Origin: Brevinematales bacterium
GTDB taxonomy: Bacteria; Spirochaetota; Brevinematia; Brevinematales; Thermospiraceae
Assembly: GCA_013177995.1 (NCBI GenBank)
Contig: JABLXN010000009.1
Location: forward strand, 1-63,540
Length of the DNA: 63,540 nt
Direction: 5' to 3'
In this document: piece after piece, positions 7,072-63,540 of the stretch
Numbering within the stretch: the stretch's first letter is position 1
Layout: each line of letters starts with the position of its first letter
Made by a program: the position numbers and the translations under genes
Notes under the pieces: model-generated
What the model was told of the DNA's origin: nothing
Databases searched by the model: none
What the model saw: only the letters and a program-made list of their open reading frames with translations

Positions 7072-7272
7072 GAGACCTTTGCACGAATGTGCAAAGGTCT
7101 CAAAAAAGTAATAAAGAAACAAAAATTAGTATCAAAATGTTCCTTGCCGTAATAAATAAATCGATTTTTTTGAATAAAAAAGACAAACCAGCCCTTGTGA
7201 ACAGAAAAATCGGGGAAGAGGGGCGCAGCCCCTGACCCAAACAGGGGAAGAAAACACCCGTGCAAGGGTCTC
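7072..7272. mobile_element. 201-bp miniature inverted-repeat element, copy 1
   Basis: The element has terminal inverted repeats GAGACCTTTGCACGAATG and (complement) GAGACCCTTGCACGGGTG, with the left end extended into a 30-nt palindromic hairpin. It is flanked on both sides by ATACC (7067-7071 and 7273-7277), a 5-bp target duplication. The interior has an AT-rich half and a small GGGGC-GCA-GCCCC hairpin. No transposase is encoded. Three more copies of exactly 201 bp occur at 10956, 34110 and 54580. Confidence 0.92.
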
Positions 7273-7319
7273 ATACCTCTCTCTTTTCGCCTCTTTCCTT
7301 GTTTCAGCAAGAGGGCATA

Positions 7320-7580: not shown

Positions 7581-8456
7581 CTAACCCAAGAGCCTCAGCA
7601 CCAGCTGAGGCTTTAAATTTGCCTGGGCCAACATGGATACGTTGGACTGAGCAAGGATCTGGTTTTTCACAAAGTCACTCATCTGCTCAGCCATATTGGT
7701 ATCGCGAATACGAGACTCTGCCGCCTGCGTATTCTCGTATGCCACATACAAACCCTTATACAGCTTCTCAAACCGGTTCTGGTAAGACCCGAGATCGGTT
7801 CTCTGTTTGATCACCTTCTCAAGGGCCTTGTCAATAATCCCGATGGCCCGGTTAGCGGTATCCATGGTGCTGGCACTGATAACCTTTTGACCATCCTGGG
7901 TCATAAGTCCAAGTGCCACAGCTCCCATATCTCCTACGAATACCTGTACTCTCTGGTCCATATTAGGTCCGATATGGAACCACAGACCAGCCGTACTATC
8001 CGTAGGCCCACTTGTATTGCCACCAGTAGGCTGAGCGAAACGACCGGTGAGGATGTTCATTCCATTGAACTGAGCATGTTTGGCGATACGATCGATCTCA
8101 TCCACAAGCTGAGACATTTCCACATTGATGAGCATACGATCCTGATCGCTGTAGATTCCGTTTCCAGCCTGTACAGAGAGTTCTCTCATACGCTGGAGAA
8201 TCATGGTTGTCTCATCCAAATATCCCTCTGTGGTCTGGAGGAACGAAATAGCATCCTCCGTGTTTCGCATAGCCTGATGCAATCCGGAGATCTGTGCCCG
8301 CATCTTTTCTGACACCGCAAGACCGGATGCATCATCACCAGCCTTGTTGATCCGAAGACCCGATGATAACTTCTCAATGTTGCCATTGAGGGTGAGATCG
8401 GTGATCTTCAGCTGGCGGTTTGAGAATATGGAACTGATATTATGGTTAACAATCAT
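7581..8456 (-). CDS. flaB: Periplasmic flagellar core flagellin, FlaB family (paralogue 1)
   Basis: FlaB proteins polymerise into the core of spirochaete periplasmic flagella. The 291-residue product starts [16 protein letters not shown] and has the D0/D1 signatures [20 protein letters not shown], the TEGYLDETT and [13 protein letters not shown] segments, and the C-terminal [18 protein letters not shown] helix. It has no signal peptide, as expected for FliC-type export. The ATG at 8456 follows AAGGAGGGAGGT; a longer reading frame to 8540 adds residues unlike any flagellin. Compared with its neighbour it carries a Gly/Thr-rich insertion near the middle ([14 protein letters not shown]). It lies 257 bp downstream of the second flagellin gene, with an inverted repeat between them, so the two may be unequally expressed. 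Confidence 0.95.
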
Positions 8457-8713: not shown

Positions 8714-9574
8714 TTATCTGAGAAGCTGCAATACAAGTTGCGGCTTCTGATTTGCCTGAGCGAGCATTGCCGTTGCGGACTGTACAAGGATCTGGTTCTT
8801 GACAAAGTCACTCATCTCCTCGGCCATATCGGTATCACGGATACGAGATTCAGCGGCCTGGAGATTTTCATACCCAATCAAGAGGCCTTTGGAAAGGTGC
8901 TGCAAACGGTTCTGGTAAGCCCCAAGATCGGCTCTCTGCTTGTTGACCTTTTCAAGAGCCTTGTCCACAATACCAATAGCCATATTGGCCTTCTCAGGGG
9001 TAGATATACTGAGAGGATCTCTCGTCGAAATATCACGAACCCCAAGAGCGGCGGCTGTCATGGTACCAATATAACTGCGGATTCTCTGGTCCATATTGGG
9101 ACCAATGTGGAACCACATGCTGGCAGCAGGATTGTTACCAGCCACATCATAGGCAAAACGACCGGTCAGCATGTTAAGCCCATTGAACTGAGCGTGGGAG
9201 GCAATACGATCCACCTCCGCAATCATCTGAGACACCTCCACCTGAATCTGCATACGATCTTCCGTGCTGTAGATACCGTTGGCAGCCTGAACGGCCAGCT
9301 CACGAATACGCTGCAGAATCTGGGTGGTTTCTTCCAGATACCCTTCGGTAGTCTGGATGAAAGAAATGGCATCCTGGACGTTCTTTTCAGCCCGTCGGAT
9401 ACCATTGATCTGCGCACGCATCTTCTCCGATACGGCCAGACCAGAAGCATCGTCACCAGCGCGGTTAATCCGCATACCAGAAGACAGCTTCTCGATGTTC
9501 TTGTCGGCGGCAAGATTATCCAGCCGCAAAGAACGTTGTGAGAAAATAGAACTGATGTTGTGGTTGATAATCAT
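8714..9574 (-). CDS. flaB: Periplasmic flagellar core flagellin, FlaB family (paralogue 2)
   Basis: The 286-residue product is the closer match to classical spirochaete Fla[17 protein letters not shown] at the start, [53 protein letters not shown], the [16 protein letters not shown] segment and a C-terminal [18 protein letters not shown] helix ending in LQLLR. It forms the helical filament core in the periplasm and is exported without a cleaved signal. AAGGAGGA precedes the ATG, and a small hairpin (CCCACA/TGTGGG, about 9600-9615) lies in the leader. No clear sigma28 promoter is visible. The gene is upstream of its paralogue and in the same orientation. Confidence 0.96.
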
Positions 9575-10886: not shown

Positions 10887-10955
10887 AAAAGCCTCAAAGA
10901 ACAAAGGTTCCCCTTTTTCTCGATACTCTCTCTAACTTTGGTAAAGAGAAGGAAT

Positions 10956-11156
10956 GAGACCTTTGCACGAATGTGCGAAGGTCTCAAGAAAGTAATAAAA
11001 AGCAAAAAGTAGTATAAAAATATTTCTTTACATAATAAAGAAGCCTATTTTTTGTATAAAAAGAGACAAATAAGCCCTTGGAAACAGAAAAAACGAGGTT
11101 TCAGGGGCGTAGCCCCTGACCCAGAAAGGGCAAGAAAGCACCCGTGCAAGGGTCTC
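10956..11156. mobile_element. 201-bp miniature inverted-repeat element, copy 2
   Basis: This copy has the same ends (GAGACC...GGTCTC), the same left-end hairpin and the same length as the copy at 7072. The target duplication is GGAAT (10951-10955 and 11157-11161). It sits about 100 bp upstream of the rex promoter. Confidence 0.92.
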
Positions 11157-11257
11157 GGAATGGCTTTTGATGGCATCGTTTCCTCTGTGATTGTCCTTGT
11201 CATGTTCTCATATTTTCTTTTTATGTACCTCTTTTGATTTCAAAAAACTCTATCTTC

Positions 11258-12658: not shown

Positions 12659-12686
12659 GAAAATGAGAGGATCGTCATCAATGGAT

Positions 12687-12725
12687 TGTCGTTCCACATA
12701 TGAAACTGAATAGCTGTTTTCACAT
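12687..12725 (+). repeat. TGTCGTTCCACA short repeat unit
   Basis: The unit reads TGTCGTTCCACATATGAAAC and continues TGAATAGCTGTTTTCACAT. Close copies are at 36325-36360 and, in rearranged form, 63415-63467. It supplies the left inverted repeat of the 781-bp element. Confidence 0.7.
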
Positions 12726-12811
12726 TTCTTATGAACAGGGAAACAACACAAAAGCTTTCTGTTATGATGCCTATTGAAAAAAGTTGCGCTTGAAAACATT
12801 ACGGCAAGATA

Positions 12812-12869
12812 GGGCTATTACCCTGTTTCAGCTAAACCATCGTTCTTTGCTGAAACAAAGTCATAGCCC
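12812..12869. repeat. GTTTCAGC hairpin repeat, copy 3
   Basis: GGGCTAT/ATAGCCC and GTTTCAGC/GCTGAAAC arms form the hairpin, with a longer loop than in the other copies. It lies inside the 781-bp element, as the copy at 57114-57172 lies inside the second large element. Confidence 0.8.
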
Positions 12870-13161
12870 TCCCCCCTGCCGCGGTGCTATATCCAAAAAG
12901 CCCCTCTGAAAAAGAAGCTCTGCGGGCTGGTGAGAGAAGGCCTTGTTCTTTTACCCCTTTTTTCTGTACCCCACTTCGACTTCGCTCAGTATCCACCGGG
13001 CCACTTTTGCGGTCGTTTGTCTTTTGCCGCAAGAGGGAAGTTCTCCCGGAGTGAGGGTGCGTATCAGTTGAAAGTTGAAAGTTTGTAAAGTTTATAAAGT
13101 TGGGGGCAAGGTTCAGTAAGACGAGTTGTGGTTGTCGAAGTTCCGAGGACGAGGCAATGTT

Positions 13162-13269
13162 GCCCACGGAGGAAGGACTTGCCCTTCTCAAGGGAAATGT
13201 TCTCCCATGGCCCGCAAAAGCGGCCCATGTTCCGTCCGAGGCGCATGCGTAGCATGCGACGAGGACAAT
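13162..13269 (-). other. Perfectly conserved 108-nt hairpin-rich core of the large repeat
   Basis: This segment is identical over 108 nt to 56734-56841 (opposite orientation) although the flanks of the two elements have diverged clearly. It contains nested inverted repeats: GCATGC-TAC... GCATGC, CATGG-CCGC/GCGG-CCATG and CCCTT-GAG-AAGGG. This pattern suggests a structured RNA or a DNA site under selection, or recent gene conversion. Peptides read through it are also identical, but no ribosome-binding site supports translation. Confidence 0.6.
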
Positions 13270-13504
13270 ACCCTTCTGGAGCCGCCGCAGGGGCGGGGTG
13301 GGGTTTTCAAAAGGGGCGAAGCCCCTTTTGCCCCGCGCGGGAGCGCTTTGTGAAAGAAGGGAGAAGGGTAACAAAAAGAACCAAGAATTGGAACAGAAAA
13401 GATGGTCGAACAAGTATTCACTTTTTGTGTAAAGATAAACCATTCTGTATGAATGTGGAACGACAAACCTTCCCCCTGAAGTTATAAAAAACACTTCTCT
13501 TCAC

Positions 13505-34087: not shown

Positions 34088-34109
34088 ACACTACCTCCCC
34101 ATATATGTC

Positions 34110-34310
34110 GAGACCCTTGTACGGGTGTATTCTTATCCTATCTGGGTCAGGGGCTACGCCCCTCTCCCCCGCTTTTTCTGTTTACAAGGGCTTATTTGTC
34201 TTTTTTGTCCAAAAAGAGATGATTATTTATTATTACAAAGAATACTTTTTATACTATTTTTGTTTTTTTATTACTTTCTTGAGACCTTCGCACATTCGTG
34301 CAAAGGTCTC
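34110..34310. mobile_element. 201-bp miniature inverted-repeat element, copy 3, in the fadD leader
   Basis: The copy is in the opposite orientation to copies 1 and 2, with the palindromic hairpin at its right end. ATGTC occurs on both sides (34105-34109 and 34311-34315) as the 5-bp target duplication. It lies between the fadD promoter (34324-34351) and the fadD start, so any transcript from that promoter carries the whole element as leader. Confidence 0.93.
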
Positions 34311-34323
34311 ATGTCACAGGTAT

Positions 34324-36324: not shown

Positions 36325-36360
36325 TGTCGTTCCACATAGAAACTGAATACCTATTTTCAC
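36325..36360 (+). repeat. TGTCGTTCCACA short repeat unit, second copy
   Basis: TGTCGTTCCACATAGAAACT and GAATACCTATTTTCAC match the unit at 12687-12725. It abuts the truncated mobile element that begins at 36364. Confidence 0.7.
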
Positions 36361-36363
36361 ATT

Positions 36364-36475
36364 GAGACCCTTGCGCGGGTGTTTTCTTCCCCTATCTGGG
36401 TCAGGGGCTACGCCCCTCTTCCCTGCCTTTTCTGTTTACAAAGGTGAGACCTTTGCACGAATGTGCAAAGGTCTC
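36364..36475. mobile_element. Internally deleted 112-bp derivative of the 201-bp element
   Basis: Both ends are present (GAGACCCTTGCGCGGGTG and the hairpin GAGACCTTTGCACGAATG with its complement), but the AT-rich inner half is missing. The flanks ACATT and AGAGT do not match, so the outer context has been rearranged. It borders the 3' end of the restriction endonuclease gene. Confidence 0.85.
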
Positions 36476-36497
36476 AGAGTTTTACAGTTTAATCTCT

Positions 36498-54544: not shown

Positions 54545-54573
54545 ATCTTAGAGAAAAATGGGGAAAAAGTCAA
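54545..54573 (-). promoter_or_regulatory. Promoter of the flavodoxin gene
   Basis: TTGACT (54568-54573) and TAAGAT (54545-54550) are 17 bp apart on the minus strand. The mobile element's target site TTTAG begins two bases beyond the -35 box, so upstream sequence has been displaced by the insertion. Confidence 0.65.
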
Positions 54574-54579
54574 TTTTAG

Positions 54580-54780
54580 GATACCTTTGCACAAATGGGC
54601 AAAGGTCTCAAAAAGTAATAAAGAAACAAAAAAATAGTATCAAAATGTTCCTTGTCGTAATAAATAAACCAATTTTTTTGAATAAAAAAGACAAACTGGC
54701 CCCTGTAAACAGAAAAAACGGGTGAGAGGGGCATAGCCCCTGACCCAGCCAAAGGAAGAAAATACCCGTGCAAGGGTCTC
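54580..54780. mobile_element. 201-bp miniature inverted-repeat element, copy 4
   Basis: The ends are GATACCTTTGCACAAATG (one change from the family start) and GTGCAAGGGTCTC. The 5-bp target duplication TTTAG lies at 54575-54579 and 54781-54785. It separates the divergent promoters of the flavodoxin gene and rpiB. Confidence 0.92.
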
Positions 54781-54875: not shown

Positions 54876-55328
54876 ATGAAGATTGCCATGGCATCAGACC
54901 ATGCCGCCTACCACCTCAAAGAACACCTCAAGACCTACCTCACGAAGTCAGGTCATGAGGTTATTGACTTTGGTACCCATTCAGAGGAGTCCATGGACTA
55001 CCCGGATACCATCAAGTTGGCGGCTCGGGCCGTCGCTAAAAATGAAGCCGAACGTGGTATTGTGCTCTGTGGTTCAGGAATCGGGGCCTCTATTGTGGCT
55101 AACAAGATCCGGGGCATCAGGGCTGCCCTTTGCCTTGATGAATACTCCGCCGAATACAGTCGCCGACACAATGATGCCAATGTGATGGTGCTGGGAGGAA
55201 GACGTACCTCTCCAGAAGAAGCAGAAAAACTGGTGGATATATGGCTTTCCACCGCCTTTGAAGGGGGAAGACATATTCGCCGTATCGAAAAAATCCACAC
55301 CATCGAAAAAGAGGAATGCCGTGATTAA
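54876..55328 (+). CDS. rpiB: Ribose-5-phosphate isomerase B
   Basis: RpiB interconverts ribose-5-phosphate and ribulose-5-phosphate. The 150-residue product has MKIAMASDHAAYHLKEHLK, IVLCGSGIGASIVANKIRGI with the active-site Cys, and CLDEYSAEYSRRHNDANVMVLGGR, as in the RpiB/LacAB family. The start at 54876 is chosen because it opens the conserved MKIAMASDHA; the longer frame begins upstream of the promoter -10. Its last 222 bp are the left part of a 361-bp unit that is repeated directly downstream. The stop overlaps the GTG of the chimeric ORF. Confidence 0.95.
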   Translation: MKIAMASDHAAYHLKEHLKTYLTKSGHEVIDFGTHSEESMDYPDTIKLAARAVAKNEAERGIVLCGSGIGASIVANKIRGIRAALCLDEYSAEYSRRHNDANVMVLGGRRTSPEEAEKLVDIWLSTAFEGGRHIRRIEKIHTIEKEECRD

Positions 55329-55828
55329 CGCCCATACTCAGGTGTATGGTATCATTGGACACCCTGTTCGCCATTCCTTCTCCCCGGCTCTGCACAATGC
55401 CGCCTTTCAGGCCTGTGGTCTCAATGCCGTCTATGTGGCCTTCGATGTAGAGAACATTGAAAACGCCATCCGGGGCATCAGGGCTGCCCTTTGCCTTGAT
55501 GAATACTCCGCCGAATACAGTCGCCGACACAATGATGCCAATGTGATGGTGCTGGGAGGAAGACGTACCTCTCCAGAAGAAGCAGAAAAACTGGTGGATA
55601 TATGGCTTTCCACCGCCTTTGAAGGGGGAAGACATATTCGCCGTATCGAAAAAATCCACACCATCGAAAAAGAGGAATGCCGTGATTAACGCCCATACTC
55701 AGGTGTATGGTATCATTGGACACCCTGTTCGCCATTCCTTCTCCCCGGCTCTGCACAATGCCGCCTTTCAGGCCTGTGGTCTCAATGCCGTCTATGTGGC
55801 CTTCGATGTAGAGAACATTGAAAACGCC
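55107..55828. repeat. Exact 361-bp tandem duplication spanning rpiB and aroE
   Basis: Bases 55107-55467 and 55468-55828 read the same throughout. Each unit runs from ATCCGGGGCATCAGGGC in the late half of rpiB to the matching ATCCGTGGCATCAGGGC in the early part of aroE. The 17-nt near-identity (one mismatch) at those two original sites marks the junction, consistent with recombination at microhomology. rpiB and aroE both remain complete; a chimeric ORF is created between them. Confidence 0.93.
55321..55689 (+). CDS. Chimeric ORF: AroE N-terminus fused in frame to RpiB C-terminus
   Basis: This 122-codon frame starts at the first aroE GTG and encodes about 50 residues of AroE (VYGIIGHPVRHSFSPALHNA onward) joined through the shared peptide IRGIRA to the last 60 or so residues of RpiB (LCLDEYSAEYSRRHNDANVM to the end). 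The fusion is in frame because both parents encode IRGIRA in the same phase. It has the same ribosome-binding context as true aroE. It lacks most of both active sites and is probably non-functional, though it could form mixed assemblies with RpiB. Confidence 0.75.
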   Translation: MINAHTQVYGIIGHPVRHSFSPALHNAAFQACGLNAVYVAFDVENIENAIRGIRAALCLDEYSAEYSRRHNDANVMVLGGRRTSPEEAEKLVDIWLSTAFEGGRHIRRIEKIHTIEKEECRD

Positions 55829-56527: not shown

Positions 56528-56733
56528 CCTCTCTTCCCTTTGAAAAGAAACCTCCCAAGTCAATAACCCCTGTTCAATGGCCAATATGTCGTTTTACCGT
56601 TCATGCAGAACGGTTATCTTCACACAATAAAGTGAATACTCGTTCAACCATCTTTCCTCTTTCAATTTTGAGCTATTTTTGTCACTCATCTTCCTTCTTT
56701 ACACGAAGCACTCCTGGCCAGAACAAAAAGGGC

Positions 56734-56841
56734 ATTGTCCTCGTCGCATGCTACGCATGCGCCTCGGACGGAACATGGGCCGCTTTTGCGGGCCATGGGA
56801 GAACATTTCCCTTGAGAAGGGCAAGTCCTTCCTCCGTGGGC
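56734..56841 (+). other. Perfectly conserved 108-nt core, second copy
   Basis: The sequence is identical to 13162-13269 on the minus strand. The first differences appear right outside this span. It contains GCATGCTACGCATGC and the CATGGGCCGC/GCGGGCCATG stem around TTTT. Confidence 0.6.
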
Positions 56842-57113
56842 GACATTGCCTCGTCCTTGAGACTTCGGCAACCACAACTCGTCCTCCTGACTTCTGCGAC
56901 TAACTTTACAAACTTTCAACTTTCAACTGATACGCACCCTCACTTCGGAAGGACTTCCCCTTTAGCAGTATAAAGAGTATTCTTCGAAACCGCAAAAGCG
57001 ACCCAGTGGGGTACAGAAAAAAAGTGTGGTGAAAGAATAGGGTTTTCTCTCACCGGTCCGCGGCGCTTGTTTTCCCCCAGGGGCTTCTTACTTATCGCAC
57101 CGCGACAGGGACG

Positions 57114-57172
57114 ATGGCTATTACCCTGTTTCAGCAAAAACCCCTCCGTAGCTGAAACAAGGTGATAGCCAT
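57114..57172. repeat. GTTTCAGC hairpin repeat, copy 4
   Basis: ATGGCTAT/ATAGCCAT outer arms with TGTTTCAGC/GCTGAAACA inner arms form the hairpin 10 bp after the TIM-barrel gene stop (minus strand). It may serve as the 3' end of the secA operon transcript. Confidence 0.8.
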
Positions 57173-57181
57173 TTCGGATTT

Positions 57182-63414: not shown

Positions 63415-63467
63415 TGTCGTTCCACACATTAACAGAAGGGGTATTTCCACATAGAAACTGAATACCT
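63415..63467 (+). repeat. TGTCGTTCCACA repeat unit at the right edge
   Basis: TGTCGTTCCACA (63415-63426) and TTTCCACATAGAAACTGAAT (from 63444) repeat parts of the unit at 12687 and 36325. The remaining bases to 63540 hold GGGCTATCTCC, which may begin another element beyond the window. No gene is visible between 63319 and 63540. Confidence 0.55.
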
Positions 63468-63540
63468 CATAAGTGTACCTCTACCTGGTGGAATTTTCAA
63501 CTTTTTCTTTCCATGGATAACGGGCTATCTCCTCACCTTT

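Follow-up and report, generated by a model that had tools for sequence, protein, structure and literature searches.

MITEs are usually a few hundred bp long and AT-rich. The BOX repeats of Streptococcus pneumoniae are composites of the form boxA-boxB(n)-boxC with sizes of 67-637 bp (PMC3049150), and MITEPye1 of Paracoccus yeei, which has a helper of the IS1182 family, is found in 1-3 copies per chromosome (PMC11578231). On the side of autonomous elements, the long-TSD members of the IS1202 family carry target site duplications (TSDs) of 16-28 bp, have ends starting with TGT and measure about 1.3-1.75 kb; ISTde1, a member of this group, has a length of 1327 bp and a TSD of 17 (PMC10132070). The repeats that we describe here from a Brevinematales bacterium are of a known kind, MITE-like non-autonomous IS derivatives that are modular like pneumococcal BOX, while the family itself is apparently new. 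Compared by architecture alone, and not by the boxA, boxB and boxC sequences, they resemble BOX as modular dispersed repeats with MITE features, fixed end modules, an exchangeable interior, strong predicted folding and variable size. However, BOX varies mainly by the tandem number of boxB, whereas the interior of the present elements is pieced together from different modules and contains hypervariable slots; they also differ from BOX in their size of 0.6-1.3 kb, in ends that match another IS type, and in TSDs of 14-20 bp. With MITEPye1 they share the non-autonomous state, a helper IS assigned by shared ends, long predicted stem-loops and an intergenic location, but not the helper family or the low copy number. 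Unlike the IS of the IS1202 family, they are derivatives without a transposase, and a limited literature search found no MITE-like derivative of the long-TSD IS1202 group.

The window analysed is the stretch of 63,540 nt at positions 1 to 63,540 of contig JABLXN010000009.1. The original prediction had singled out 13162-13269 as identical to 56734-56841, rich in inverted repeats and embedded in flanks that differ. The identity is indeed exact over 108 nt, with a mismatch directly beyond each end, the first core being the reverse complement of the second and thus in opposite orientation, and all the inverted repeats named are present (GCATGC-GTA-GCATGC, CCGCAAAAGCGG and CCCTT/AAGGG). As to the flanks, those downstream diverge immediately after the core, whereas those upstream are still alignable and about 78-95% alike in stretches. 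An identity of this extent is far beyond chance because the two elements, W1 and W2, belong to a single repeat family, for which a covariance model finds 37 full cores in the genome. The 108-nt identity as such is not special. The proposed local conservation between dispersed copies holds for W1 and W2, but the pattern of a conserved core in diverged flanks is true of that pair only. The majority of the other cores carry differences within the 108 nt, the core of L077 matching W1 at 106 of 108 nt, and W1 has exact runs with other copies outside the core, of 85 nt with L052 (13050-13134), 73 nt with L054 (13046-13118) and 72 nt with L051 (13335-13406).

When the 861 nt around the core were searched against the source genome of 57 contigs (2.38 Mb), 105 matches were obtained in about 40 places, and sequence was read only in the stretches around such matches. 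W1 is a full MITE-like element of 782 nt on the plus strand (12686-13467), with terminal repeats at both ends and no transposase gene. Its terminal inverted repeats (TIRs), TGTCGTTCCACA, lie at 12687-12698 (plus strand) and 13454-13465 (minus strand), and its ends, TTGTCGTTCCACAT... and ...ATGTGGAACGACAA, recur in many copies; the genome contains 73 exact occurrences of TGTCGTTCCACA and 0 of the reversed control pattern. Its interior contains a hairpin module, CTATTACCCTGTTTCAGC...GCTGAAACAAAGTCATAG, at 12815-12869, an upstream module of the CCGCTTTTGCGG...AAGTCCTTCC type at 12995-13056 (plus strand) and the core (plus strand). The upstream module is by its sequence an imperfect inverted partner of the core, and the predicted fold of L056 pairs the two. 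W2, on the minus strand (56587-57175), lacks the left end and begins in the hairpin module, carries its core at 56734-56841 and has a degraded right terminal repeat. The hairpin, CTATNACCNTGTTTCAGC, which is REP-like and found at 12815-12869 and 57116-57170, is a module of the elements but also exists independently of them, with 203 near matches genome-wide.

Target duplications of 14-20 bp flank nine elements, and a control in which left and right flanks of different copies were paired gave 0 of 110. Neither W1 nor W2 has a visible target duplication of its own, so their insertion is deduced from membership of the family and, in the case of W2, also from an empty site in a related genome. The right TIR was located for 23 of the 37 cores, always with the core in a fixed orientation to it, and follows downstream at 144-148 nt in 14 copies and, where an extra module is present (five copies), at 198-206 nt; it was undetected for the other 14 cores, some of them at contig ends. 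L061 and L079 are intact two-ended elements devoid of a core, indicating that the core is not needed for transposition. The family thus has the TIRs and target duplications of MITEs, lacks a transposase gene while sharing its ends with an autonomous element of its own genome, and has a highly base-paired predicted structure, the seven elements folded being more stable than shuffled sequences on both strands (z from -2 to -10). Given that the elements are larger than MITEs (592-1310 bp) and not AT-rich (G+C 0.45-0.55 vs 0.46 in the window), we call them MITE-like non-autonomous IS derivatives rather than strict MITEs.

The length of the TSDs and the TGT start of the ends suggested an element of IS1202 type as the helper. 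A profile search for ISNCY transposases recovered open frames on contigs C8, C12 and C54, each flanked by two inward-facing copies of the terminal repeat of the elements. These three full IS copies measure 1365-1372 bp, and all three are without the core. Target duplications of 18 bp flank two IS copies, and the left 41 nt are identical between the IS copy L094 and the element L061. The encoded protein of 406 aa is a DDE transposase with an integrase-type core. Its match to the ISNCY_2 profile (2e-38; NF033594) scores 132 bits, below the curated cut-off of 250, and it also matches the IS481 profile (6e-34, 118 bits), again below the curated cut-off; we refer to the transposase as ISNCY/IS1202-like. 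In its size, TGTCG ends and TSD the helper IS agrees with the long-TSD IS1202 elements (PMC10132070), and it is likened to ISTde1 by description, without alignment. The sharing of ends and the similarity of TSDs suggest that this transposase would move the elements in trans. A further copy of the helper IS, reduced to a terminal repeat and the final 19 transposase codons (minus strand), lies at 63415-63540 and is truncated by the contig end. Additional contigs break within the helper IS as well (e.g. C20, C23, C32, C37, C43); since contigs end inside its copies, its copy number is underestimated.

Along W1, the nearest relative switches about every 60 nt, passing through L056, L079, L051, L060, L061, L054, L077, L052, W2, L078 and L051 again. 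The loci read share 76 exact runs of at least 70 nt with one another, and 22 of the 76 exceed 108 nt, some of them stemming from a second repeat family nested in those loci. With a different nearest copy for each segment of W1 and so many exact runs, the 108-nt tract is one of many exchanged pieces. The core is very probably an internal module of a MITE-like non-autonomous family that is homogenised piecemeal by recombination. In such a scenario, the elements would be moved by the helper transposase, recombination or gene conversion among dispersed copies would keep swapping short tracts, and one swapped tract, common to W1, W2 and L077, would be what appears as the 108-nt identity. The original prediction came close in offering gene conversion limited to this part, the element being a patchwork, and also in offering the cis-acting site of a mobile element, in so far as the core does lie inside a mobile element with TIRs and target duplications. 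Several observations sit uneasily with this account: W1 and W2 have no TSD of their own and W2 no intact ends, 14 of the 37 cores lack a detectable right TIR, and the elements are oversized and not AT-rich for MITEs. Moreover, uniform conversion leaves unexplained why parts of the core are constant and others variable.

This contrast is evident within the core, where three boxes alternate with two slots, all on the plus strand in W1 and with identities measured against W1. Box 1, ACGGAGGAAGGACTT (13166-13180), is 99% identical across copies and is followed by the hypervariable slot 1 (13181-13210), with 64% identity and a regex-defined length of 27-36 nt in 37 copies. Box 2, CCCGCAAAAGCGGC (13211-13224), at 97%, precedes slot 2 (13225-13231), a variable 7-mer with 15 alleles in 37 copies, and box 3 (13232-13266) is a hairpin around GCATGCGTAGCATGC with about 97% identity in its centre. 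Identity per 15 nt is 84-99%, with 97-99% in the boxes, which do not drift in the manner of the flanks. A coding function of the core is ruled out by the lengths of slot 1, which spread over all three frames. Near-identical alleles of slot 1 (such as TCCCTGGGGAGTGGGATTTCTCACTAC) are combined with different alleles of slot 2 (in this case CCACCAT, CCATGTT and CTGTCTT); the alleles of the two slots thus reassort, indicating that exchange or replacement acts over about 15 nt. The loop of box 3 reads GTA, or inverted TAC in L062 and L072, where the left GCATGC arm is perfectly complementary, a state that resembles inversion at the palindrome.

Could W1 and W2 simply be two recent copies of one parent whose flanks were altered afterwards? 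They do belong to one family, but outside the core W1 is closest to L052, L054, L051, L060 and L078, and neither the left part nor the downstream module is present in W2, making this so improbable that we give it hardly any weight; common descent of the two as whole elements is contradicted by the mosaicism and by the exact runs with other copies. A new class of functional structured small RNA, encoded by the core and carried by the element, with the boxes as stems and the slots as tolerated or diversified loops, is very unlikely. Such an RNA would fit the three boxes being as conserved as the terminal repeats, and the folding of whole elements beyond that of shuffles; that excess, however, is present on both strands, as palindromic DNA would give. 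In addition, the covariation term for the core's consensus structure is -0.04, and eight broken cells stand against a single compensated one. The hairpins of slot 1 are not significantly better than those formed by halves joined from different copies (permutation p=0.11), which rejects compensatory pairing in slot 1, and slot 1 is not tracked by its counterpart in the upstream inverted module (p=0.73). Rfam over the window gave a tRNA as its sole match and thus none for the core, and the intact elements without a core speak against the RNA as well. The suggestion of an undescribed small RNA class is thus not supported, given a covariation that is essentially nil and copies that vary inside the 108 nt. 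Drift of the core at the pace of the flanks had been foreseen as a counter-indication to a functional element, and is found in part: slot 1 varies in the other copies without covariation, but the three boxes show no such drift.

A constraint on the core sequence itself is possible. Were the core to act in cis as a DNA site of the element, or to bind a host protein, with the boxes selected and the slots free, both the contrast between boxes and slot 1 and the near-constant distance to the right TIR would be accounted for. The core is nevertheless absent from intact elements and from all three full IS copies, which shows that it is not required for transposition, and no binding protein is known, so that we entertain this DNA site tentatively, with the chances somewhat against it. 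The two accounts do not exclude each other, and such a site would give the MITE-like family a function. The likeliest, if unproven, explanation of the contrast between boxes and slots is selection on a DNA site; under the MITE-like account, the boxes might be kept as DNA, as a protein-binding or transposition-related site or through a mutational effect of palindromes, rather than as base-paired RNA. A fainter prospect still than the small RNA is that the core is a functional cassette, with boxes held by selection and with the 27-36 nt of slot 1 and the 7 nt of slot 2 actively varied and reassorted among the approximately 40 copies. If this were true, the copies would together form a repertoire of, e.g., variant binding sites or regulatory RNAs.

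G001, a genome of the same genus, lacks the W2 insertion. By alignment end points, the genes flanking W2 are 119 nt apart there vs 700 nt in the window, a difference (581 nt) that agrees with the length of the element (589 nt). At the W1 site only the right-hand neighbour is conserved in G001, so no empty site can be read. The core had no DNA match in 40 relatives and no covariance-model match in the 12 other genomes of the order, and a pattern scan of genome_contigs, which may omit the source genome, hit five unrelated bacteria with one isolated match each, which we judged to be chance. As far as these searches reach, the family appears restricted to the source species.

Other repeats are present in the window. 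A second MITE-like family, whose repeats are about 200 nt long and have the ends GAGACCYTTGCACG..., is found at 7072-7273, 10954-11157, 34109-34311, 36363-36476 and 54562-54780; its copies nest in the core-family elements L057, L074 and L076, and the target duplication of L068 lies inside one of them. A lone exact TGTCGTTCCACA at 36325-36336, near a second-family copy, is probably a remnant element. An exact 300-nt direct repeat (55107-55406 and 55468-55767, offset 361 nt) lies over the start of a shikimate dehydrogenase gene; the alignment with G001 is what a single copy there would give, which points either to a tandem duplication of recent date or to an artefact of the assembly. Diverged direct copies (75-89%) at 7644-8257 and 8777-9375, about 1.13 kb apart and over neighbouring minus-strand open frames, are probably a tandem gene duplication.

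What had been a candidate RNA class is replaced here by a concrete account, that of a non-autonomous element family with an identified helper IS, which resembles the little-studied long-TSD IS1202 group. In the core of these elements, invariant boxes contrast with hypervariable slots that reassort 15 nt apart, and this makes the family usable for testing how dispersed bacterial repeats are shaped by gene conversion, by selection and by palindromes.
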